In this document: in pieces, positions 2,702-16,246 of the stretch
Layout: the number at the start of each line of letters is the position of its first letter
How positions within the stretch are numbered: the stretch's first letter is position 1
Source of the DNA: Pseudomonadota bacterium
GTDB taxonomy: Bacteria > Pseudomonadota > Gammaproteobacteria > Steroidobacterales > Woeseiaceae
Length of the DNA: 64,000 bases
Reading direction: 5' to 3'
Assembly (NCBI GenBank): GCA_027621915.1
Contig: JAQCAD010000002.1
Location: 62,001 to 126,000 of the forward strand
The notes under the pieces: generated by a model
The model's database searches: none
What the model saw: only the letters and a program-made list of their open reading frames with translations
Told to the model about the DNA's origin: nothing
Position numbers and translations under genes: made by a program

Positions 2702-3649
2702 TCAACTGCCGTTGTTGTGATTTCGAACCGCGAGTTCGGCCGCCGCTAAGTCTTCAAGTGCCGTACCGACGGACTTGAACAGGGTTATTTCGTCCACAGC
2801 TGATCTTCCCTTTGCGCGACGCATGGCCAAATCGCGGAGCGAGCCACGAATGTCCGTCTCAATGATCGCGCCGCATTCAATCGCCTGAACAATTTCACCT
2901 GACTCGGCCAACGCGCCGGCCCTTGTGTCAACGTAAAGATCCGCTCGTGCGATCGCGAGTGAATCTGCCTCGGCCATGCCGGGTGTGAATGCACCGACGA
3001 GATCGATGTGCTGCCCTGCCGTGAGCCATTCACCCTTGAGCAGTGGCTCCGTCGCCAGCGTTGCGCAACTGACGATGTCCGCATCGCGACATGCTTCTTC
3101 CAGATTGTCTGCCACGGAAATTTCAAGAGATGAGCCGGACAGTTTATCAGCAAGCCGTCGCGCAGCATCGGGACGTCTGCCCCAAATGGTAACGGTCTTT
3201 ATCGGCCTGGCGGTCGCATGCGCGCGAACAAGGTGTGGCGCGAGGTTGCCGGTTCCGACCATGAGCAGTTTCGTCGCGTCTTTTCGTGACAGATAGGTCG
3301 ACGCCAGTGCCGAGGCCGCCGCGGTCCTGCGTAGCGTGAGCTCAGTGCCATCAAGCAGAGCAACCGGCATTCCGTTTTTAGCGCTCATGAGCAGGTAGCT
3401 GCCAAACACGGCCGGATTGCCTTGCTTCACATTGTCCGGAAAAACGGTCACGATCTTGACGCCCATGTTGGCGCCTTTGCGCCACGCAGGCATCAGCAAC
3501 AAGATGCCGGCGTTGCCACCCGGCACTGACACTTCGTGATGGGCGCGCGCAGGCACCTCAACATCACTCGCAAACGCTTCGTTTAGCGCTTCGATCAGCT
3601 GCTTGATCGGCAATGCAGCCGCCACCATTTTCGCGTCGAGATTCAGCAT
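2702..3649 (-). CDS. ornithine cyclodeaminase / mu-crystallin family protein
   Basis: This 315-residue NAD(P)-binding protein belongs to the OCD/mu-crystallin family, whose members deaminate ornithine to proline or reduce ketimines and opine-like compounds. Visible marks are the substrate-side GVKIVTVFPDN (with the conserved Lys), LLDGTELTLRRTAA, the dinucleotide-binding GTGNLAPHLVRAH near residues 132-144, and DIVSCATLATEPLL. The length is typical. It is divergent from the APC permease operon, with only 45 bp between starts, so shared regulation is plausible and the two may act on the same amino-acid-like substrate. The exact reaction is not determined. Confidence 0.85.
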   Translation of the reverse strand: MLNLDAKMVAAALPIKQLIEALNEAFASDVEVPARAHHEVSVPGGNAGILLLMPAWRKGANMGVKIVTVFPDNVKQGNPAVFGSYLLMSAKNGMPVALLDGTELTLRRTAAASALASTYLSRKDATKLLMVGTGNLAPHLVRAHATARPIKTVTIWGRRPDAARRLADKLSGSSLEISVADNLEEACRDADIVSCATLATEPLLKGEWLTAGQHIDLVGAFTPGMAEADSLAIARADLYVDTRAGALAESGEIVQAIECGAIIETDIRGSLRDLAMRRAKGRSAVDEITLFKSVGTALEDLAAAELAVRNHNNGS

Positions 3650-3694
3650 AGGATGCGCGAGGATAGCACTTCCCCACGATGATCAAGACCTGTA

Positions 3695-5104
3695 ATGTCT
3701 GAGCGCAAACCATCTTCAGCGAGCTCAAGAATAATAATGACGCTGCAACGAAAACTCGGCCTGTCGGCGGTGTTGGCCGTCGTGATCGGCGACATGATCG
3801 GCTCCGGCATTTTCTTCACCCCGGGGGAACTTGCCGTCGTTGCGTCTGCCGAGTGGCAAGTCTATTTTTTCTGGTCCCTGTGTGGAGTCATTACCCTCTG
3901 CGGCGCGCTGACGCTTGCGGAACTGTCGGCACTCATCCCCAGGGCTGGTGTGGCCTACCACGCGCTTAATGAAGCTTATGGTCCGTTCGCCGGTTTCATG
4001 CAGGCATGGATGATGATACTGGTCAGTGGTCCTGGCGCTATCGCGGGTGTCGCAATATTGTTTGGCGAGCTCGCGAACCAGGTTTTCGGCACCGGGTCTG
4101 CCGGTATGCAGATCGGCTGGGCGATCATCGCGATCGCATTCTTTGTCGCTGTTAATCTGCGCGGCGCCGAATGGGGTGGCCGGACCCAGGTTTTTCTTAC
4201 GACCGTGAAAGTGATCGGTTTGGTCGCACTGATTGTTGGCGGTGTCTTTATCGCCTCACCGGCATCAGTCGCACAGGAGTCCATCGATGCGACTACAATT
4301 AAGGGCGGCGTGGTCGGTTTTTTACGTTTCATTGGATTGGGCGTCGCAATTGTCCTCTTTACTTACGATGGATGGATCGACGCGTCCAACGTTGCCGGGG
4401 AGGTAAAAAATCCCGGTCGCAATTTCCCCCTGGCGATGGGCATTGGTGTTGTAACCATTACGCTGATTTATTTGCTGGTTAACTTTGCCTTTCTCAGGGT
4501 CGTGCCACTCGAGGTGATGCGGGAGAATCCGTCTCTCGTTGCGCCGGCTGTTGCCAGGGCGGCGTTCGGCGATGCCGGCGGTACGGCATTGAGTTTCCTG
4601 ATGTGGATTTCAATATTCGGTGCTCTCGGCGGGTTGATCATGACATTGCCGCGTTTGTTTTATGCCGCAGCGTCGGAGTATGTTGAACGCGCTGAGCACA
4701 CGGTGCTTGGGCCCGTTTTCAAAGCTATCTCACATCTGTCGCCGATTCGCAGTGTACCAACCGGCGCGATTCTTTTTGCGGCGGGAATATCCATTGCAGC
4801 ACTTTTGTTCTTTGGCTCTTTTTCCCGGATAGTCACGTTTTTTCTCGTGCCGTTTCAGTTCATGAATATTCTGATGGTGTCATCAATTTTCAGATTGCGG
4901 AAACGATTGGCGACTGAAGTCTCGTTCAGGGTGCCCGGTTACCCGGTGGTGCCAGGCATTTTTATTTTCGTGATGTCATTGTTCCTAATCGCGGCACTGG
5001 TCTATAACCCGCTGGACAGCGTAATCGGTATTGCGCTTACCCTTGCCGGTGCGCCGGTATACAGAATGTTGGCGAAGGTAAACACGGAGCAGGAAAATGG
5101 CTGA
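3695..5104 (+). CDS. APC-superfamily amino acid permease
   Basis: This inner-membrane transporter of about 469 residues belongs to the amino acid-polyamine-organocation superfamily. The first helix carries the family signature DMIGSGIFFTPG, and about 12 hydrophobic segments follow. A second in-frame ATG at 3737 (MTLQRKLG) would also give a normal N-terminus; neither has a strong ribosome-binding site. Its stop overlaps the start of the BtpA-family gene by 8 nt, followed by a PfkB kinase, so the imported compound is probably phosphorylated and processed by these partners. FrlA, the fructoselysine permease, is a known relative with a kinase in its operon, but substrate identity here is inference. 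Confidence 0.85.
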   Translation: MSERKPSSASSRIIMTLQRKLGLSAVLAVVIGDMIGSGIFFTPGELAVVASAEWQVYFFWSLCGVITLCGALTLAELSALIPRAGVAYHALNEAYGPFAGFMQAWMMILVSGPGAIAGVAILFGELANQVFGTGSAGMQIGWAIIAIAFFVAVNLRGAEWGGRTQVFLTTVKVIGLVALIVGGVFIASPASVAQESIDATTIKGGVVGFLRFIGLGVAIVLFTYDGWIDASNVAGEVKNPGRNFPLAMGIGVVTITLIYLLVNFAFLRVVPLEVMRENPSLVAPAVARAAFGDAGGTALSFLMWISIFGALGGLIMTLPRLFYAAASEYVERAEHTVLGPVFKAISHLSPIRSVPTGAILFAAGISIAALLFFGSFSRIVTFFLVPFQFMNILMVSSIFRLRKRLATEVSFRVPGYPVVPGIFIFVMSLFLIAALVYNPLDSVIGIALTLAGAPVYRMLAKVNTEQENG

Positions 5105-5885
5105 CTTTCGGGCAGTTTTTTCAACACCCAAGCCCATTATCGGCATGATTCACCTGCCGGCCCTGCCCGGCTACCCGGGGTCGAAAGGGATCAACTATAC
5201 GATCAGGCGAGCTGTCGCAGATCTCCGGGCACTTGAGGACGGCGGGGCTGACGGGGTGCTGATTGAGAATGAGCACGACCGGCCGCACCGGGTGGAAGCT
5301 GCGCCGGAAACCATTGCGGCGATGACCAGGATTACTCGTGCTGTCGTGCAGGAAAGTGAGACAGTCGTCGTGGGATGTGAAATTCTTTTGAACGATCCGA
5401 GAGCATCTCTGGCCGTCGCACGGATGGCTGGCGCCCAATTTATTCGCACGGACTATTTCGTCGACAGAATGACACGCCCTGAGTACGGCGAGTTTGCGAT
5501 TGATCCGGACGCGTTGCTGAAATATCGTTCACAGATCGGCGCCGAAAGGGTACTGATACTGGCTGACATTCAGGTCAAGTACGCGTCGATGGTGACCCCC
5601 AGGTCATTACGGGAGTCAGCAGCGCTGGCGCGGATTAAGGGAGCGGATGCTGTGATCGTCACTGGCGATGCGAGCGGCGATGCACCGACGGTGGAACATC
5701 TGCGGGAGTCTGCCGGTCATGGCCTGCCTGTTCTTATTGGCAGCGGCCTGAGACCCGACAACGCCGAAGCGCTACTTGCCGAATGCGACGGCGCTATCGT
5801 CGGCACATCGATAATCAAAGACGGTTCGGTGAATCCTGACTCTCTCGAGTTGTTAATGTCTCATGCGAGAAGGCAACGGAAGTGA
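5097..5885 (+). CDS. BtpA/SgcQ family TIM-barrel protein
   Basis: This 262-residue protein of the BtpA/SgcQ family opens with IIGMIHLPALPGYPGS, the typical first strand and loop. Further marks are DGVLIENEHDRP, GAQFIRTDYF, ADIQVKYA, ADAVIVTGDASGD and the phosphate-binding-like end VLIGSGLRPDNA with GAIVGTSIIKDG. The last two resemble the phosphate grip of (beta/alpha)8 enzymes such as phosphoribosyl isomerases. Family members have been linked to photosystem I biogenesis (BtpA) and to an uncharacterised sugar operon (SgcQ), with no settled reaction. Overlaps with both neighbours (8 nt and 4 nt) indicate translational coupling. A TIM-barrel enzyme acting on the kinase product is a reasonable inference. 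Confidence 0.85.
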   Translation: MADFRAVFSTPKPIIGMIHLPALPGYPGSKGINYTIRRAVADLRALEDGGADGVLIENEHDRPHRVEAAPETIAAMTRITRAVVQESETVVVGCEILLNDPRASLAVARMAGAQFIRTDYFVDRMTRPEYGEFAIDPDALLKYRSQIGAERVLILADIQVKYASMVTPRSLRESAALARIKGADAVIVTGDASGDAPTVEHLRESAGHGLPVLIGSGLRPDNAEALLAECDGAIVGTSIIKDGSVNPDSLELLMSHARRQRK

Positions 5886-6736
5886 GGGTCGTTTGCGTCG
5901 GCGATTGCGGAATCGATCACTACGTCCCATCGAATGAACGTCGTTGCGGAGGCATTACAGCTAATTTTGCAAGGCACGCGCGACGCGAATTCCCGGCTGA
6001 CGACAGAATTGAGATCGTGTCCTGCGTTGGGAGCGATGACGGTGCTGCGTTGGTTAAGGCTTCGCTCGCGAACTCCGGGATCAGTTGCCATATTTCAGAA
6101 CTGCCGGGAACAACGCCGGTGCAGACCATTGAGATCGATTCCAGCGGCGAGAAAAATTTCGTTCGTTACGACGAAGGCGTGTTGCGGGATTTTACTTTCG
6201 GTGCCAACGAGCGTGAAATGATCGCATCGTGCGATTTGTTAGTCGCGCCCGTCTACCTGCAAATTGTTGATTTGTTTGATGATTTGATGATGGTGCAGCG
6301 AGCCGGTTTGACCGCTGTCGATTTCTCCGATTTCCTGCAGCATCCTGATTTCGCTTTGCTGGAGCGGCATCTCGATTGCATCGACATAGGTTTTTTCGGT
6401 TTGTCCGTGGGCGACGCCGATGCGATTGACCGACTCGCTGACTTGGCGGCGAGTAATAAAAAACTGTTTATCGTTACGCTGGGTGCGGACGGCAGTCGCG
6501 CATTTCACGGCGCGTCACGATTCGAATGCCTGGCGACCCCGGTGGAGAAAGTTGTTGATACGACCGGAGCGGGCGACGCATTTGCAGCTGCGTTTCTGGC
6601 GAGTTACTGTCATGGCGCGGGCGTACGTGATGCCATGAAGAGGGGTGCTACGCTGGCGGCAGAAGTGGTTGGCTACTGCGGTAGCTACGTACTGCCAACT
6701 TCCGCGATGACCAGTACGATCAAAATGAGGAGGTAG
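5882..6736 (+). CDS. PfkB-family carbohydrate kinase
   Basis: This 284-residue ribokinase-like sugar kinase starts at a GTG that overlaps the preceding stop by 4 nt. It has the N-terminal sugar-binding region GDCGIDHYVP with GGITANFARHA, and the diagnostic C-terminal DTTGAGDAFAAAF (near residue 222), which provides the anion hole and catalytic Asp. It would phosphorylate a sugar or sugar conjugate with ATP in the cytoplasm. FrlD, which phosphorylates fructoselysine, is a similar small kinase found with an APC permease, but no FrlB-type deglycase is present here. The substrate is unknown. Confidence 0.85.
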   Translation: MRVVCVGDCGIDHYVPSNERRCGGITANFARHARREFPADDRIEIVSCVGSDDGAALVKASLANSGISCHISELPGTTPVQTIEIDSSGEKNFVRYDEGVLRDFTFGANEREMIASCDLLVAPVYLQIVDLFDDLMMVQRAGLTAVDFSDFLQHPDFALLERHLDCIDIGFFGLSVGDADAIDRLADLAASNKKLFIVTLGADGSRAFHGASRFECLATPVEKVVDTTGAGDAFAAAFLASYCHGAGVRDAMKRGATLAAEVVGYCGSYVLPTSAMTSTIKMRR

Positions 6737-6741
6737 TCTGT

Positions 6742-7308
6742 ATGTCTATGTTGATTGCAGGTGTCCTGGTGTGGGTCGGCGTCCATTTGATCCCTGTTTT
6801 GGCGAGGGCTTTTCGGCAGAATTTCATCGATTCGAAAGGCAAGGGTACTTATCGCGGCATATTTGCGTTGGCGATATTCGCGTCTTTGGCGCTTATCGTG
6901 CTTGGCTGGCGTTCGTCTCCCGAAGTCTATTTGTATGTACTGGAGCCACCGGTTAAGACGGTCGCGTTCATATTAATATGTGTCGCCTTTATCATTTTCG
7001 GTTCGGCGCATCATCCATCGTCGATAAAACGATTCGTTCGGCATCCGATGCTCGTCGGCGTCGCAGTCTGGGCGCTGGCCCACCTGTTGACGAATGGCTC
7101 GACCCGCGCGCTTGTATTGTTTGGTGGTATGGGTGCCTGGGCGTTAATTGAAATTCTCCTCATTAACAGGCGCGATGGCGTTTACGTGAAACCTGAAGCC
7201 CCCGGGTTCAACGAAGAGCTCAAAGGACTGTTTTTCAGTGCCGGGATTCTGTTGCTGGTGCTGTTGGCACACCCCTACTTCACGGGCGTCACCCCTTTCC
7301 CGCGCTAG
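6742..7308 (+). CDS. NnrU family membrane protein
   Basis: This 188-residue polytopic inner-membrane protein of the NnrU family has about six hydrophobic segments. The conserved parts are LVWVGVHLIPVLA near the start, RHPMLVGVAVWALAHLL in the middle and HPYFTGVTP at the end. An AGGAGG ribosome-binding site lies just upstream of the ATG. NnrU was named from denitrification gene clusters and is related to isoprenoid/haem-O metabolism proteins; its biochemical role is not settled. It lies 5 nt after the PfkB kinase and is probably co-transcribed, though the functional link is unclear. Confidence 0.85.
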   Translation: MSMLIAGVLVWVGVHLIPVLARAFRQNFIDSKGKGTYRGIFALAIFASLALIVLGWRSSPEVYLYVLEPPVKTVAFILICVAFIIFGSAHHPSSIKRFVRHPMLVGVAVWALAHLLTNGSTRALVLFGGMGAWALIEILLINRRDGVYVKPEAPGFNEELKGLFFSAGILLLVLLAHPYFTGVTPFPR

Positions 7309-9180: not shown

Positions 9181-10413
9181 TCAGTTCCCCATACCTGGCA
9201 ATGAGAGGTTGTCAGTGTAAATGCAGTTGGCTTCACGAATATCCGAGCGCAAAACGCGATCGCGGAATTTGACATGCTTCCATTCGCCAACCCAGTGTTC
9301 CGGATCGGTAAACGTGAATTCGGTCACCAGCGTATTGCCGTTGTTGATCATCTGAATACGCTCTACGATTTTTAGTTTCGCACCGGTAATCACGCCGGCC
9401 TGAATCAGGTGATTGTCATCGGTGAATCCGGTTGTCTCGACGACCAGCGTGTCGTCTTCCCAGTGGCCCAGTGATTCGCCGCCCCAGTTCCTGTCCAGCT
9501 TGCTTTCGGGTACGCGCTCCCGCCCGTCAGTGAATATGACGCGGTATTCATTATTCAAACGGGACACCATGTAAATCGCAGTCGGAAACTGGATCATCAT
9601 CATTGATCCGTAGCGCGTCATGAAACGAGGCATACCTGCCGGATAACACAGCGCGGTAGGGTCTCCGAATCGCTCGCCCTTTTTCGACGCTTCCAGGTAA
9701 GTTTCGTGAAATTCCTTACCTTTTGCCGTGAATTCCGGGCCCGGCTTGAATTCGAATGAACCGTAGTTTGCGCGCCATTGATCCTCGCCACGGAATTGCC
9801 AGACGCCCGTCAGATCGAATCCAGCGGGAGGCCGCTTCTTCGCAAGATTTTCCGGGTCGAATGCGCCGTCGGTGAAACCGGCTGCAGACCCGTCACCCGC
9901 AGAAGAGCCGTCGGATACGATCGGCAGTGCCGGCGGCCGCGTTTTCTTCTCGCGCATCTGCCAGGTTTCTCCTTCCGGCGGCGGTTCCCAGGGCATCAAT
10001 GCGGGGTAAACCAGCCGCCTTCGCTCCGGAGCATCCGATCCATCCATCGAGTAGGACTTGCCGTTGGCACCGATCATTCCCTGGATGAGCCCCCCCGGTT
10101 CCCCATTTTTTAATGGGTGCATCTTGATCGTTACCGTGTCACCCACCGCGAGTGACTCACGATCAAAACCACTTGCACGCATCGCGGCAATACTTTGCCC
10201 CTCAATTTTCCACACTTCAGGATTGCCCGAGTCGTCGGTGACTTCCAGTGTGATGATGAGATGGGGGTTGCGGTAAATGAACTGCGTAACCTTGCCGGTC
10301 TCTTGTACGGATGCGGCTTCGTCAAAAACGACGGCGGAATGATGAGCTATTGCCCGTCCGGCCATCAATCCAAGAATCACTGTCATCAAAAAAACGTTTC
10401 TACGGGAATGCAT
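9181..10413 (-). CDS. DUF6152 family secreted protein
   Basis: This 410-residue exported protein has a signal peptide ending at about GRAIA, directly followed by HHSAVVFDE; an AHHS start to the mature chain is characteristic of DUF6152. The N-terminal part (to about residue 120) is a small beta domain (VTQFIYRNPHLIITLEV, LAVGDTVTIKMHPLKNG). A Pro-rich linker follows, then a second beta-rich region with LTGVWQFRG, GHWEDDTLVVETTGF and MINNGNTLVTEFTFTDPEHW. The biochemical function of the family is unknown. A paralogue lies 76 bp upstream and a TonB receptor diverges from it, which suggests a shared envelope process. Confidence 0.8.
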   Translation of the reverse strand: MHSRRNVFLMTVILGLMAGRAIAHHSAVVFDEAASVQETGKVTQFIYRNPHLIITLEVTDDSGNPEVWKIEGQSIAAMRASGFDRESLAVGDTVTIKMHPLKNGEPGGLIQGMIGANGKSYSMDGSDAPERRRLVYPALMPWEPPPEGETWQMREKKTRPPALPIVSDGSSAGDGSAAGFTDGAFDPENLAKKRPPAGFDLTGVWQFRGEDQWRANYGSFEFKPGPEFTAKGKEFHETYLEASKKGERFGDPTALCYPAGMPRFMTRYGSMMMIQFPTAIYMVSRLNNEYRVIFTDGRERVPESKLDRNWGGESLGHWEDDTLVVETTGFTDDNHLIQAGVITGAKLKIVERIQMINNGNTLVTEFTFTDPEHWVGEWKHVKFRDRVLRSDIREANCIYTDNLSLPGMGN

Positions 10414-10489
10414 ACACTGCTCTCCTGAACTACCTGTTCCGACGCCGCCTCGTTTTGACCGGCTTACCGTCGACCGTCGAATGCGGTCA

Positions 10490-11551
10490 TCATTGTTTCG
10501 GGCTCAGACCCGCCTCGAGATACAACCTGGCATTTTCCAGCGTGCATTCGACGTCGACCAACTCGCGATCTGAAAGTTTGGCCATGAAATAGTCGATGGT
10601 AACCGGTTCAGTCAGATAGACCGGGTCGGTCACTATCATCTGAATCTCCAGCGCAAGACCATCGTCTGAAAGCGAGTACCGTTCGAGTAAATGTTTCTGA
10701 TCGCTCGAATCCACGCCCGTGTGAATCCCCCACCGGTCAGCCACAAAGTTAGTTGTTTCGACAACCAGCGTATCCCCTTCGAACCAACCGACAGAGTGTC
10801 CCAGCGAAGAGGGCTTTCCTGCAGGCAGGTTGCGGTCGAGATAAATAGTGCGCGGCGCGTCACGAAGCTCGTAATCCAGAAAAACGGTCTTATCATCAGG
10901 TCGACTGATCTTCATCGGATACGGCAGCAACGTGGCTTTCGGTGGGCCGGGGTTCTGACACGAAACCTGGGGGTTTTGACTTTCATCAAAATTGTCCACC
11001 AGCGCTTGCGCCATTTTAGTGTATGGCCAGTCCGAAGGCGGATAGTAGTGCGCCTTTCCGCCGCGCAGATCTCTTACCCACAATCCGGTCAGGTCAGTGG
11101 ATGGATCGAGCACCTCGTCTCGCTTCGCCATCGCAAGACGGGTACCGTCTGATTTCTCGAGCCAGTTCAATCCGGAAAACGCCCGATCCGGATCCTTGTC
11201 GGCAGCGCCCTCCCAGGTGATCTGATCGCCTACCTTGAGAGAGTCTTTGCCCCAGCCGCGTTCCATCATCGCCGGCGGATGAAGGAGCTCGATGCTGTAT
11301 TCAACTACCTCGCCGGCAGGGTTCGGCGCCATAGCTTTTATGAATACATGCGGCATGCGCCAGTCGTACTTTGTCACCGTGCCCCGATGAGCCTGTATGT
11401 TGTTTCGATCAAGACTGGAATGGGAATGGTGCGCGCTCAATGTTACGGCGACCAACAGGGCGAATGCACATCGCGCCCACACGCCAAAGTGCCGCCCGAT
11501 TGAGCGTTCGTTCGAGCGACCATCCACAGACTTTGAGTTTAGTGTCAGCAT
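10490..11551 (-). CDS. DUF6152 family secreted protein (paralogue)
   Basis: This 353-residue paralogue of the next gene has a hydrophobic export signal (CAFALLVAVTLSA, about residues 27-40) followed by HHSHSSLDRNN. The same blocks occur in the same order: VTKYDWRMPHVFIKAMA, LKVGDQITWEGAADKD, LTGLWVRDLRGG, GWFEGDTLVVETTNF and a C-terminal YLTEPVTIDYFMAKL. The shared architecture and tandem arrangement point to an old duplication. No enzyme motif is recognised. It heads the minus-strand pair and shares a 525-bp divergent region with the TonB-dependent receptor. Confidence 0.8.
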   Translation of the reverse strand: MLTLNSKSVDGRSNERSIGRHFGVWARCAFALLVAVTLSAHHSHSSLDRNNIQAHRGTVTKYDWRMPHVFIKAMAPNPAGEVVEYSIELLHPPAMMERGWGKDSLKVGDQITWEGAADKDPDRAFSGLNWLEKSDGTRLAMAKRDEVLDPSTDLTGLWVRDLRGGKAHYYPPSDWPYTKMAQALVDNFDESQNPQVSCQNPGPPKATLLPYPMKISRPDDKTVFLDYELRDAPRTIYLDRNLPAGKPSSLGHSVGWFEGDTLVVETTNFVADRWGIHTGVDSSDQKHLLERYSLSDDGLALEIQMIVTDPVYLTEPVTIDYFMAKLSDRELVDVECTLENARLYLEAGLSPKQ

Positions 11552-12076: not shown

Positions 12077-14530
12077 ATGATGTCGAAACGAATACTGGCA
12101 ACACTATTGGGCACGATCGTCGCTGCGGTGCTTTTCGGAACGCCTGCGATGGCTCAGGAGGACGACGGTGTCGGCCTTGATGAAATAACTGTGTCAGCGC
12201 AGCGCCGCGAGCAGAGTATCCAGGACACGCCGATCTCCATCACGGCGTTCACTTCGAACAGGCTTGACGAGCTGGGAATTAATGACCCGGTAGCCATGAT
12301 GGACTTTGTGCCAAATGCAATGGTGAGTTCGGGTACCGGACGCGGTGGAGAGGTCGCACAATTTTCCATTCGCGGCGTCAATGAAGCCCGAATCAGCCCG
12401 GTACTGGATCCTGGTGTTGCAATTTATATAGACGATGTTTACTACGGCCGCCCGCAAGTGGGCTTCCTGCAGTTTGTCGACACCGAGCGTGTCGAAGTTC
12501 TGCGTGGTCCGCAGGGAACGCTGTTCGGCAAGAACAGCACCGGCGGTGCCGTGCGTTACATCACAAAAAAACCTGATCTTGACGGCAATCACGGTTATGT
12601 CGACATAGCAGTTGGTGACTATGATCGCGTCAATGTGAAGGGTGCGTTCAATGCTGTTTTGTCGGACACCACGGCTGTTCGCATTTCGGCCGCCAGTTTC
12701 GAACGTGACGGATACGTGAAACGCCTCGCCGACAATATTGATCTGGGCAACCAGGACTCGCGCGCGTTTCAGTTTCAGATTCGGCACCAGCCATCAGACA
12801 GGTTGACTGTCGATGTTCGCGCTGATGTCTCCGTCTCTACCGACGACAACGGCGCTGTCAAGCTGATCGATTATTACAACTTCAATACGACGACCGACCT
12901 CGCGACACCGGGAGGTCCGAGCAATCCGGCCAGCCCGGGTTCTAGCGCCATTGCTGCCTGGAATAACCAGTGGGGTGGGACTGCGATGGAGTACGCCGCA
13001 GAGATTCCCCGCAGCCTTTACCAGATTGCCGGTACGGGTCTTCTGCCCTGGACGGACAATGAAAGTACGGGCCTCGCGCTGGACATCGACTATGAGCTCA
13101 ATGACACAATCTCGCTACGCTCAATAACCGGATACCGGAAGATGGACTCAACCGCGTTTCGTGACCCGGATGATGTAGCACATGCGACAACGTTCTTCGA
13201 TGACTATGTTCTTACCACGGTCGATTTCTGGTCGCAGGAATTCCAGCTCAACGGTCTGAGCATGAACGACCGACTGAATTGGGTCGCCGGTTTGTTTTAC
13301 TCAAACGAGGAAAACGGCGCAATTGAGTACGCCGATGCCGACGGGAGGAGTACATCCCAGTACGGCGCCTTGTTGCTGAACGATGATCAGCTGCAGGAAA
13401 CCAAGAGTCTCGGTCTGTTTGTACAGGGAACGTATGCGGTGACTGACTCGCTCTCACTGACTCTGGGTGTCCGTTACACCGAAGACGACAAGACTTATAC
13501 GGTTGGCCAGGTTGCTGTCTGGGATGATCGACTCGATCAGATGGCTGATGACCTGGGGTTACCTGATTTGGTGGCGCCGCTCTATGAGGGTGGCACTTGT
13601 GATCCCTCTATCGACGCCGTGTGTACCGTCGTTGCGCCACTCTCGGGCGGCGACACATTCGACGCTGTTACACCGCGCTTCGCCCTTGAGTACAAAGTCA
13701 ACGACGACATCATGGTTTACGGCTCTTACTCAGGCGGCTTTAAAGCTGGCGGGACCAACGACACCGTTGGCGACATTAATACGCCATTCCAGGAAGAGAC
13801 TCTTAATAGTTCGGAGTTGGGTATTCGCACGACGCTGTTCGATGGGCGTGTGCGCGCGAACCTGACGGCGTTCAGCATGGATTACGAGGATAAACAGATA
13901 ACGGTGACAACCTCTCCCGTCTGCAACAACCGCTGCACAACCAATGTGGGTGACGGCAAGATCACCGGTTGGGAGCTCGACGGCATGGCGGCGTTAACCG
14001 ACAACATCATCTGGAATCTGGGTGTCGGTATTCTGGATGCGCGGTGGGATTCGATTACGAATCCCTCTGCCGGTGTAACGACGTCTTCGCCGTTCAGCGC
14101 CGCACCGGACCTGACGTGGAATACGGGACTCCGGTTTACAGCGGACCTCTCGAGTGGCGCCAGCGTCGTGACCAGTCTCGATTATTCGTACACGGATGAG
14201 CATGCGACCTCACCGCAAGACAGCACGACGCTTTACATGCCCGAATATGACCTGATGAACGCACGGGTCAAGTGGGTGTCGCCCGATGGCGAATACGAGA
14301 TGTCCCTGTTTTGCAGCAACTGCCTTGATGAAGAGTACGCTCGCTCAGGCAACGGTTGGGCCGGCGGCACATCGAACACGTTCTTCCCTTACAAGGAAGA
14401 CAATACACCGGCATTCACGGCAGGCGGGCAGGATCCGAGGCGAAACGCCGCACCGGGTATCACGATCGTGCAGGTTGGCGCACCGAGAATGTGGGGCGTG
14501 CAATTTCGTTACAATTTTGGTGATGGTTAA
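12077..14530 (+). CDS. TonB-dependent outer-membrane receptor
   Basis: This 817-residue TonB-dependent receptor comprises a signal peptide (cleavage after about PAMA), a TonB-box-like segment DEITVSAQRR, the plug domain with GPQGTLFGKNSTGGAVRYI, and then a 22-strand-type barrel ending in VQFRYNFGDG. The plug wording is that of the large receptor class common in marine Proteobacteria, Sphingomonads and relatives, which take up diverse ligands and not only siderophores. It is monocistronic, with a strong terminator after it, and is divergent from two DUF6152 genes. The ligand is unknown. Confidence 0.9.
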   Translation: MMSKRILATLLGTIVAAVLFGTPAMAQEDDGVGLDEITVSAQRREQSIQDTPISITAFTSNRLDELGINDPVAMMDFVPNAMVSSGTGRGGEVAQFSIRGVNEARISPVLDPGVAIYIDDVYYGRPQVGFLQFVDTERVEVLRGPQGTLFGKNSTGGAVRYITKKPDLDGNHGYVDIAVGDYDRVNVKGAFNAVLSDTTAVRISAASFERDGYVKRLADNIDLGNQDSRAFQFQIRHQPSDRLTVDVRADVSVSTDDNGAVKLIDYYNFNTTTDLATPGGPSNPASPGSSAIAAWNNQWGGTAMEYAAEIPRSLYQIAGTGLLPWTDNESTGLALDIDYELNDTISLRSITGYRKMDSTAFRDPDDVAHATTFFDDYVLTTVDFWSQEFQLNGLSMNDRLNWVAGLFYSNEENGAIEYADADGRSTSQYGALLLNDDQLQETKSLGLFVQGTYAVTDSLSLTLGVRYTEDDKTYTVGQVAVWDDRLDQMADDLGLPDLVAPLYEGGTCDPSIDAVCTVVAPLSGGDTFDAVTPRFALEYKVNDDIMVYGSYSGGFKAGGTNDTVGDINTPFQEETLNSSELGIRTTLFDGRVRANLTAFSMDYEDKQITVTTSPVCNNRCTTNVGDGKITGWELDGMAALTDNIIWNLGVGILDARWDSITNPSAGVTTSSPFSAAPDLTWNTGLRFTADLSSGASVVTSLDYSYTDEHATSPQDSTTLYMPEYDLMNARVKWVSPDGEYEMSLFCSNCLDEEYARSGNGWAGGTSNTFFPYKEDNTPAFTAGGQDPRRNAAPGITIVQVGAPRMWGVQFRYNFGDG

Positions 14531-15299: not shown

Positions 15300-15339
15300 G
15301 GCCGCTTTTGGCTGCGGTTTCAATGGATCGTCGCAACAC
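15300..15339 (+). repeat. left terminal inverted repeat of the IS30-family element
   Basis: It begins GGCCGCTTTTGGCTGCGG and matches the reverse complement of the right end at 32 of 40 positions. The best-conserved core is TGCGGTTTCAA, and the inner end is GCAACAC. Confidence 0.85.
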
Positions 15340-16246
15340 ATTCATTAAATTTTTCAGCCGGCGAGTAAAATTGTAGCGTTTTTCGTGGTCGTTCGTTGAG
15401 CTGTCTGGCTACCGCGTTGAGCTTTGCTTGAGAGTGCACCGACAAGTCTGTTCCCTTTGGAAAGTATTGCCGAAGAAGACCGTTCGTATTTTCGTTCGAG
15501 CCTGTTTGCCAGGGGCTTTGTGGATCACAGAAGCAGACTTTGATGTCCGTCGCTAGCGTGAAGCGTTTATGATCGGCCAGTTCACTACCACGATCCCAGG
15601 TCAACGACTTGCAAAGTTCTCGCGGCAGTTTGTGGGAGTGCTTTATCAGCGCGTTGGTCTCGGTCTCTTTGCTGTCCACTTTCATCAACATTACGTAGCG
15701 TGTATGGCGTTTCACCAGGGTAGCGATCTGCCTATCGTAAGTGCCGAAGATGGGGTCGCCCTCCCAGTGCCCGGGCAGTGCTCGATCCGCAACCGAAGCT
15801 GGCCTTTCGCGGATCGAGACGGCATCGGTGATCTGTCCCGGACCTTTGCCCTTCAGGGTTTTATGCCTCGAACGACGCATCGCGCGTGTCTTGCGCAGGT
15901 GCTGTTGCAGCTCTTTCTTCAAGGCGCCGCGGACCTGGATGAAGAGGCTTTTGTAGATCGTCTCGTGTGACACCTGGGGGTTCTCGTTGTTCGGGTGCCT
16001 GCGCTTCAACCAGCCGGCTATCTGTTCGCGTTCCGCCATCGTCAACGTTCTTTGCGAACGTCTTCGCTTGGGCGGACGAATACCACCTGTCTGAGCAAGA
16101 ATGTTCTGTATCGACGAATGACTGCGACCAAAGTGACGACCAATCGCGTTGAGTGACTCGCCTTTCCGCCAGCGATCCCCCATCAACGACTTATCCGCTT
16201 CCGTGCAATAAATCCTCGTTGGATACTTCATTTCCAACACCTCCAT
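15320..16246 (-). CDS. IS30-family transposase lacking an internal DNA-binding segment
   Basis: This 308-residue transposase retains the DDE catalytic core: GHWEGD (Asp about 164), LTWDRG (Asp about 218) and SNENTNGLLRQYFPKG (Glu about 252). The N-terminal helix-turn-helix (about residues 17-52) is present. In full-length relatives of about 390 residues, the motif after the Arg-rich linker is followed by a second HTH and about 80 residues before SPEQIAGWLK. Here AEREQ is joined directly to IAGWLKRRHP (residues 71-83), so that segment is missing in frame. Catalytic residues are intact, but sequence-specific binding is probably impaired. The relative's length is from general knowledge of the family. 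Confidence 0.88.
   Translation of the reverse strand: MEVLEMKYPTRIYCTEADKSLMGDRWRKGESLNAIGRHFGRSHSSIQNILAQTGGIRPPKRRRSQRTLTMAEREQIAGWLKRRHPNNENPQVSHETIYKSLFIQVRGALKKELQQHLRKTRAMRRSRHKTLKGKGPGQITDAVSIRERPASVADRALPGHWEGDPIFGTYDRQIATLVKRHTRYVMLMKVDSKETETNALIKHSHKLPRELCKSLTWDRGSELADHKRFTLATDIKVCFCDPQSPWQTGSNENTNGLLRQYFPKGTDLSVHSQAKLNAVARQLNERPRKTLQFYSPAEKFNECVATIH

Follow-up and report, generated by a model that had tools for sequence, protein, structure and literature searches.

The window analysed here is a stretch of 64,000 nucleotides from a bacterium of the Woeseiaceae (Gammaproteobacteria), taken from contig JAQCAD010000002.1 of assembly GCA_027621915.1 (positions 62,001 to 126,000 of the forward strand). 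Close to its beginning, three genes on the same strand encode an amino-acid permease of the APC superfamily, a TIM barrel of the BtpA/SgcQ family and a PfkB-family kinase. These genes are referred to below as the cassette, and we tentatively suggest that they could serve the breakdown of glycated amino acids. Their positions in the window are as follows.

3695–5104, + strand: APC-superfamily (LAT-type) amino-acid permease, cassette gene 1; start possibly 3737; Pfam AA_permease_2, 2e-52
5097–5885, + strand: BtpA/SgcQ-family TIM barrel, cassette gene 2; PF03437, 1.9e-54; TIGR00259 above cut-off
5882–6736, + strand: PfkB-family kinase, cassette gene 3; GTG start; PF00294, 2.2e-29

The junctions were read directly and confirm overlaps of 8 nucleotides between the permease and BtpA genes and of 4 nucleotides between the BtpA and kinase genes, as reported in a preliminary description of the locus. 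That description also noted a gene of the ornithine cyclodeaminase (OCD) family diverging from the permease at a distance of 45 bp. The divergence stands, as does the 45 bp to the first permease start, but the true gap may be 87 bp, with translation beginning at the ATG at 3737, since permease homologues in four loci (L153, L154, L155 and L158) align only from residue 7–15 of the window frame. Against the NCBIfam models the permease scores 171 bits with TIGR00911 and 107.7 bits with FrlA NF008466, both under cut-off, and its identity to E. coli FrlA is 26%. A promoter and terminator scan at the locus gave signals no more than in shuffled sequence.

A cassette that recurs across phyla

Genome contigs were searched with BtpA alone, and the best 80 of 128 loci were used. 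Neighbouring kinases were counted where BtpA was at least 200 amino acids long, which left 78 of the 80 (L041 and L044, each with a shorter BtpA piece, were dropped); gene calling was mechanical and is weak in G+C-rich loci. Within the clade that holds the BtpA of the window, delimited in the next section, a PfkB gene lies within 2.5 kb of BtpA in 23 of the 25 usable loci, and directly after BtpA in the same 23. This adjacency is seen in Pseudomonadota, Acidobacteriota, Bdellovibrionota and Patescibacteria. Because it recurs across phyla, the trio of permease, BtpA and kinase is a real cassette and more than a chance arrangement, and the conserved co-occurrence on which the preliminary description turned is upheld. 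The order permease, BtpA, kinase is found in L017–L028 (Woeseiaceae, other Gammaproteobacteria, Kordiimonadaceae and another alphaproteobacterium). BtpA and kinase face the permease in the Acidobacteriota (L029–L031) and in L210 and L211, where the permease faces the kinase from about 1–2 kb away, and L212 has the order kinase, BtpA, permease. The last three belong to a set of 13 further stretches, picked by BtpA similarity alone from the phyla of L036 and L030. A kinase stands beside BtpA in eight of these (L200, L201, L204, L205, L207, L210 with a partial frame, L211 and L212) and none was found near BtpA in four (L203, L206, L208 and L209), while L202 is not scorable as its contig ends there; L203 is probably the same record as L035.

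Across loci, the sequence distances of the trio members are also correlated. For BtpA and the kinase, r is 0.84 over 25 loci (0/5000 permutations) and 0.64 in a diverse subset of 13 (1/5000 permutations); over 17 loci, r is 0.68 for BtpA and the permease and 0.82 for the kinase and the permease (0/5000 permutations each). Such correlations can also be raised by shared descent alone. Within the Pseudomonadota sampled the cassette is rare, since a search of 398 genomes with the window kinase (E up to 1e-25) matched one, the window's own. Among 60 relatives (own genome counted), 15 have a BtpA match, all inside the window's family, including a distant paralogue at 38% identity (G011) and one match cut by a contig end (G010). 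Farther afield, BtpA matches were found in 16 of 290 genomes from the phylum of L036 (E up to 1e-40), the weakest being L209 with 4/10 of the signature residues introduced below, and in 5 of 396 genomes from the phylum of L030 (E up to 1e-50).

No recurring partner beyond the trio was seen among the neighbours scanned, and the flanking genes vary. Three alphaproteobacterial cassettes (L022, L027 and L044) have extra genes. Downstream in both L022 (2826–6119) and L027 (4797–12890) are an FAD-type oxidoreductase and a 463-amino-acid protein without a Pfam match, and L027 has in addition a DDAH/ADI-type gene upstream, with one of the same cluster in L044, and a PhyH-type gene. EgtD-like and EgtB-like (ergothioneine-type) genes lie immediately upstream of the cassette permease in L026 (4281–6556), and a Na/Ala symporter is among the neighbours in L028.

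In the window, the cassette is flanked by two further genes.

2702–3649, − strand: OCD/mu-crystallin-family imine reductase (PRK06141 type), resident neighbour; OCD_Mu_crystall, 6.2e-62
6742–7308, + strand: NnrU-family membrane protein, resident neighbour; PF07298, 2.8e-45

The OCD gene is of the P2C/Pip2C reductase (PRK06141) type, scoring 419.1 bits against NF004793 (cut-off 322). The NnrU gene, inside the range of the preliminary description but unnamed there, starts 5 nucleotides downstream of the kinase; it follows the kinase in L017, L018, L020 and L021 as well, while in L024, L025 and L028 it is found upstream of the permease. OCD is present in 27 of the 60 relatives (own genome counted), 14 of which have no BtpA match (in four of the 14 the OCD match has no more than 41–46% identity and may be a paralogue). 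OCD and NnrU stand together with no cassette between them in L161 and with only a permease remnant between them in L167, while beside OCD there is a permease remnant and then a kinase remnant in L156, and a permease remnant before BtpA in L157; all four are draft genomes, in which single cases could be assembly faults. OCD lies on the same contig as the cassette but far away in G017, and the cassettes of L026 and L027 have no adjoining OCD. Relatives that lack the cassette or retain it only in eroded form still have both genes, so OCD and NnrU are residents of the locus and not cassette parts, and the cassette behaves there as a separable insert on which OCD does not depend. OCD was considered as a member of the pathway and ruled out, as it occurs in relatives without a BtpA match and beside empty or eroded cassette sites, and a functional tie between OCD and the trio is not borne out. 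Farther along the window, judged by sequence alone, are two adjacent open reading frames with an AHHS motif near the N-terminus (9181–11551), one like a TonB-dependent receptor (12077–14530), and one reading like an IS30-type transposase that adjoins glmS–glmU (15320–16246).

The kinase, the barrel and the search for a deglycase

The kinase scores 103.2 bits against PF00294 (cut-off 25.8) and has the C-terminal motif DTTGAGD. Its best NCBIfam model is FrlD NF007321 at 132.2 bits, with the next best at 56 bits, and five other cassette kinases (L027, L029, L033, L036 and L039) likewise fit FrlD best, at 83–139 bits, none of them above its cut-off. Kinases of five other BtpA loci fit ribokinase, ribose-1-phosphate kinase or pseudouridine kinase models best, and the kinase of L088 is above the ribokinase cut-off. 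A kinase tree of 61 rows was built by a quick method with a midpoint root and only Shimodaira–Hasegawa-like approximate likelihood ratio test (SH-aLRT) support, leaving out partial kinases (L010 and L025) and near-duplicate loci. In this tree 25 cassette kinases form one group (SH-aLRT 99), and a branch (99) joins them to 10 FrlD-like kinases, apart from 26 other PfkB kinases; the cassette kinases stand beside the FrlD group, not within it. The FrlD-like rows were gathered by similarity to E. coli FrlD, so that sampling is not neutral, and one sequence from that search (L151) fell among the other kinases and is counted with them for the residues that follow. D8 is present in 25/25 cassette and 10/10 FrlD-like kinases and in 4/26 of the others, and Y14 in 24/25, 10/10 and 3/26, respectively.

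The NCBIfam ranking and the tree rule out a standard ribokinase or fructokinase. The preliminary description had named such an enzyme, or the lack of a conserved neighbourhood in relatives, as findings that would tell against it; neither holds, because the neighbourhood is conserved and the kinase is FrlD-like. The adjacency might nevertheless be real and the cassette scavenge an ordinary sugar or amino-sugar, unrelated to Amadori chemistry. PfkB substrates switch easily, and the highest score of the permease is for a general LAT-type transporter, both of which fit such a role. However, the kinase lies beside FrlD in the tree, D8 and Y14 are common to both groups, and the trio includes an amino-acid permease, and we consider this explanation most improbable.

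Membership of the second protein in the BtpA family is supported by 185.2 bits against PF03437 (cut-off 30) and 181.4 bits against TIGR00259 (cut-off 153.4). An AlphaFold2 model gives a confident (beta/alpha)8 barrel (pLDDT 96.2, pTM 0.93). The solved folds closest to it are barely separated from one another and include TrpF, phosphoribosyl isomerase A, thiamine phosphate synthase, HisF, MJ1099, ribulose-phosphate epimerase and 2-keto-3-deoxy-6-phosphogalactonate (KDPGal) aldolase; by sequence, none of the solved chains could be recognised as a BtpA-family member. Over the C-terminal part, TrpA, HisF and other proteins are matched by the family profile, and these matches, with the predicted fold, back the phosphate-grip-like C-terminal end noted earlier. 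The model has the features of a ribulose-phosphate-binding barrel, namely the (beta/alpha)8 fold and a predicted phosphate site of GSG and VGT type at beta7/beta8. The invariant N58 and R117 and the near-invariant H19, E57, D61, D157 and K161 are at or just after the C-terminal ends of strands, as are the GSG and G236 residues of the putative phosphate site. The structure alignment (A3) leaves out L007, L013, L014 and L015.

The near-invariance of K161 and D157 would also suit an aldolase, or an isomerase feeding one, that cuts the kinase product between two sugar carbons, perhaps through a Schiff base on K161, to yield a triose phosphate plus a second fragment, such as a small aminoketone. 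The best folds, which rank close together, include KDPGal and 2-keto-3-deoxy-6-phosphogluconate (KDPG) aldolases and the methanofuran-biosynthesis protein MJ1099, but the fold discriminates little. KDPG-type aldolases carry their lysine on beta6, whereas K161 is placed by the model in the loop after beta5. The fragment would moreover need an extra enzyme, for which the cassettes showed no recurring candidate; an aldolase is in our view quite unlikely.

In a BtpA tree (quick method), the window protein falls in a group of 29 rows (SH-aLRT 96); 27 of these have an FrlD-type kinase beside them at their locus, and two (L034 and L035) have none. A signature of ten residues (E95, D100, D119, Y120, D123, M125, R127, E132, Q159 and A163, six of them charged) is identical in 29/29 of this clade, on which its positions were chosen, and the other 56 alignment rows have 0–3 of the ten. 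In a fresh test on the 13 later stretches, 4/10 (L209) or 6–10/10 were found. The beta4 loop of the clade's BtpA proteins is also longer by one residue, Y130. The signature lies near the active end of the barrel, and its residues around the beta3–beta4 loops may hold the amino-acid part of the substrate.

The absence of a deglycase from the locus, as first described, extends to the whole window genome (G000, 95% complete), with no FrlB recognised among its SIS proteins. This genome has five SIS matches in four proteins, which read, from their sequence and neighbours, as GlmS, a KdsD-type CBS protein, a GmhA-type protein and an RpiR-type regulator. No SIS-type deglycase (FrlB/FraB) was recognised in the window genome or in 19 other genomes with clade BtpA, which are drafts, so that absence from any one genome is not proven. 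E. coli FrlB was used as the query against 20 genomes, comprising 19 with clade BtpA (among them L034, where no kinase adjoins BtpA, and L044, which is partial) and that of L085. It matched in 16 of the 20, and in 15 of the 19 clade genomes, at 20–27% identity in frames of 609–667 amino acids, the size of GlmS; the best score in a clade genome was 42 bits, and one short piece of 36% identity was in a broken frame. FrlB matches beside FrlD-like kinases, scored by another program, reach 109–389 bits. In the phylum of L085, 8 of 348 genomes gave an FrlD-like kinase, and an FrlB match is in the same stretch as an FrlD-like kinase in 5 of 9 cases (L143, L144, L146, L147 and L149).

These searches bear on whether BtpA might only epimerise or isomerise the phosphorylated conjugate, as FrlC does with psicoselysine, leaving cleavage to an enzyme elsewhere in the genome. 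Its fold class is that of ribulose-phosphate 3-epimerase and N-acetylmannosamine-6-phosphate epimerase, and E. coli SgcQ shares an operon-like run of genes with SgcE, a putative epimerase. With no FrlB recognised in the 19 clade genomes, and no other enzyme seen to recur in the cassette, such a role is distinctly improbable.

A possible pathway and its standing in the family

We propose that the permease, by homology, would take up a glycated (Amadori-type) amino acid or a similar aminosugar conjugate, and that the FrlD-type kinase, to judge from its place in the tree and the shared residues, would phosphorylate the sugar end of the conjugate. BtpA would then bind the phosphorylated sugar through its grip at beta7/beta8 and split the bond between sugar and amine, releasing the amino acid and a sugar phosphate. 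It might do so directly, as a deglycase, or through a retro-Amadori isomerisation with hydrolysis as the next step. This reaction would take the place of that of FrlB, as suggested by the position of BtpA and by the fact that no FrlB was recognised. It is very probable that BtpA acts on what the neighbouring kinase produces; the whole route, from uptake through phosphorylation to BtpA cleavage, is put forward as a serious candidate with a somewhat less than even prospect of being right. The preliminary description had likewise read the locus as import, phosphorylation and conversion by BtpA, and that outline is partly supported by the conserved neighbourhood, the FrlD-like kinase, the lack of a recognised FrlB and the sugar-phosphate barrel fold with conserved residues at its active end, while a functional tie to OCD is not.

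BtpA/SgcQ proteins are spread through bacteria and archaea, and outside the cassette clade a PfkB gene lies within 2.5 kb in 24 of 53 loci, with no such kinase in the other 29. Family scans of these outside clusters used Pfam or NCBIfam on one or two members each. BtpA occurs with a PnrA-type ABC importer and PfkB in L070 and L072, with ribokinase, RbsD and an Rbs-type importer in L082, L088 and L094, and with an importer, PfkB and an amidohydrolase in L049 and L063. The first two, from Thermotogota, have a tandem BtpA pair followed by the kinase and importer genes (L070, 4685–7283; L072, 1600–4198). In Flavobacteria-type loci (L051, L053, L059, L060, L078 and L090) BtpA is divergent from a PsuK-like kinase, behind which a gene of the PsuG type (pseudouridine-5'-phosphate glycosidase) lies in five of the six, L090 ending at the kinase. 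An AIR-synthase-related (PurL-like) gene adjoins BtpA in the Anaerolineaceae (L046 and L048), with a PfkB kinase close by. The factor common to the outside contexts is import, PfkB and BtpA, and because the three recur together, BtpA is likely to be a user of the kinase product in general.

Several of these contexts would fit a different substrate, a nucleoside or a C- or N-ribosyl compound with an amino-acid-like part, which the kinase would convert to a 5'-phosphate and BtpA would process as a nucleotide glycosidase or ribosyl-phosphate isomerase. The PnrA-type importers (L070 and L072), the ribokinase and RbsD genes (L082, L088 and L094) and the PsuK-like and PsuG-type genes (L051, L053, L059, L060 and L078) all favour it. 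The cassette kinases, however, group with FrlD and not with the kinases from these contexts, the cassette importer belongs to the APC amino-acid permeases, and the other 56 BtpA proteins have at most 3/10 signature residues (at positions chosen on the same set), which leaves a nucleoside-type substrate unlikely. A broader form of the deglycation proposal would combine a cassette BtpA acting as a TIM-barrel deglycase (retro-Amadori isomerase) in place of FrlB with a whole BtpA/SgcQ family, E. coli SgcQ included, acting on 1-amino- or 1-base-substituted sugar phosphates supplied by a PfkB kinase or a phosphotransferase system (PTS); both parts together we think rather doubtful.

A number of observations weigh against cleavage of a glycated amino acid by the cassette. 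The kinase, at 132.2 bits, is under the FrlD NF007321 equivalog cut-off of 247, and may therefore have another substrate. The fold search barely separates isomerase, aldolase, synthase and epimerase (Z 18.0–20.1 over the 50 listed rows). Four of the nine FrlD-like stretches hold no FrlB match, and no match to the window permease was present in the Patescibacteria and Bdellovibrionota loci L032–L040 and L042. BtpA is kept with 8–10/10 signature residues, and no kinase found nearby, in L034, L035, L206 and L208. Finally, the family contexts, with their ribose-, nucleoside- and pseudouridine-type operons, need not involve Amadori compounds and do not single out Amadori chemistry.

Comparison with known systems

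In its proposed function, the cassette would correspond to the frl/fra fructosamine pathway with a TIM barrel replacing the SIS deglycase FrlB. In a published account of the frl pathway, the kinase phosphorylates at C6 and the deglycase releases, for example, glucose 6-phosphate and the free amine (PMC12632257). E. coli frlABCD and B. subtilis frlBONMD resemble the cassette in combining an importer (of APC type in E. coli) with a PfkB kinase from the same broader group and one other enzyme. They differ in that the window cassette has a BtpA/SgcQ barrel and no recognised FrlB, its kinase is under the FrlD cut-off, and no FrlC- or FrlR-type gene was seen among the cassette neighbours read.

In the part of open-licence PubMed Central that was surveyed, no reaction for BtpA/SgcQ and no tie to an FrlD-type kinase was found. 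What appears to be new is a possible variant of a fructosamine-type pathway and, from sequence comparison, the association of BtpA with an FrlD-type kinase. The cassette offers a concrete route to finding the reaction of the BtpA/SgcQ family, whose chemistry becomes directly testable because the FrlD-type kinase narrows the substrates to a small, obtainable set. If BtpA does deglycate, Amadori breakdown would have a second enzymatic solution, unrelated to FrlB and with a fold other than SIS.

With the wider BtpA/SgcQ family, including E. coli SgcQ, the window protein shares a full family match and the family-wide conserved residues. SgcQ, however, is in a PTS-type operon without PfkB, while the cassette BtpA proteins form a separate clade with the signature and Y130. 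Pseudouridine catabolism by PsuK and PsuG follows a similar logic, with a PfkB kinase and then an enzyme that splits the phosphorylated conjugate, and such genes adjoin BtpA in the Flavobacteria-type loci, but PsuG (PF04227) belongs to another family than BtpA. HisA and TrpF run Amadori rearrangements. These phosphoribosyl isomerases share the barrel class of BtpA, and Foldseek ranks TrpF and phosphoribosyl isomerase A near the top, but they are 12–16% identical to it and are likened to it at the level of the fold.

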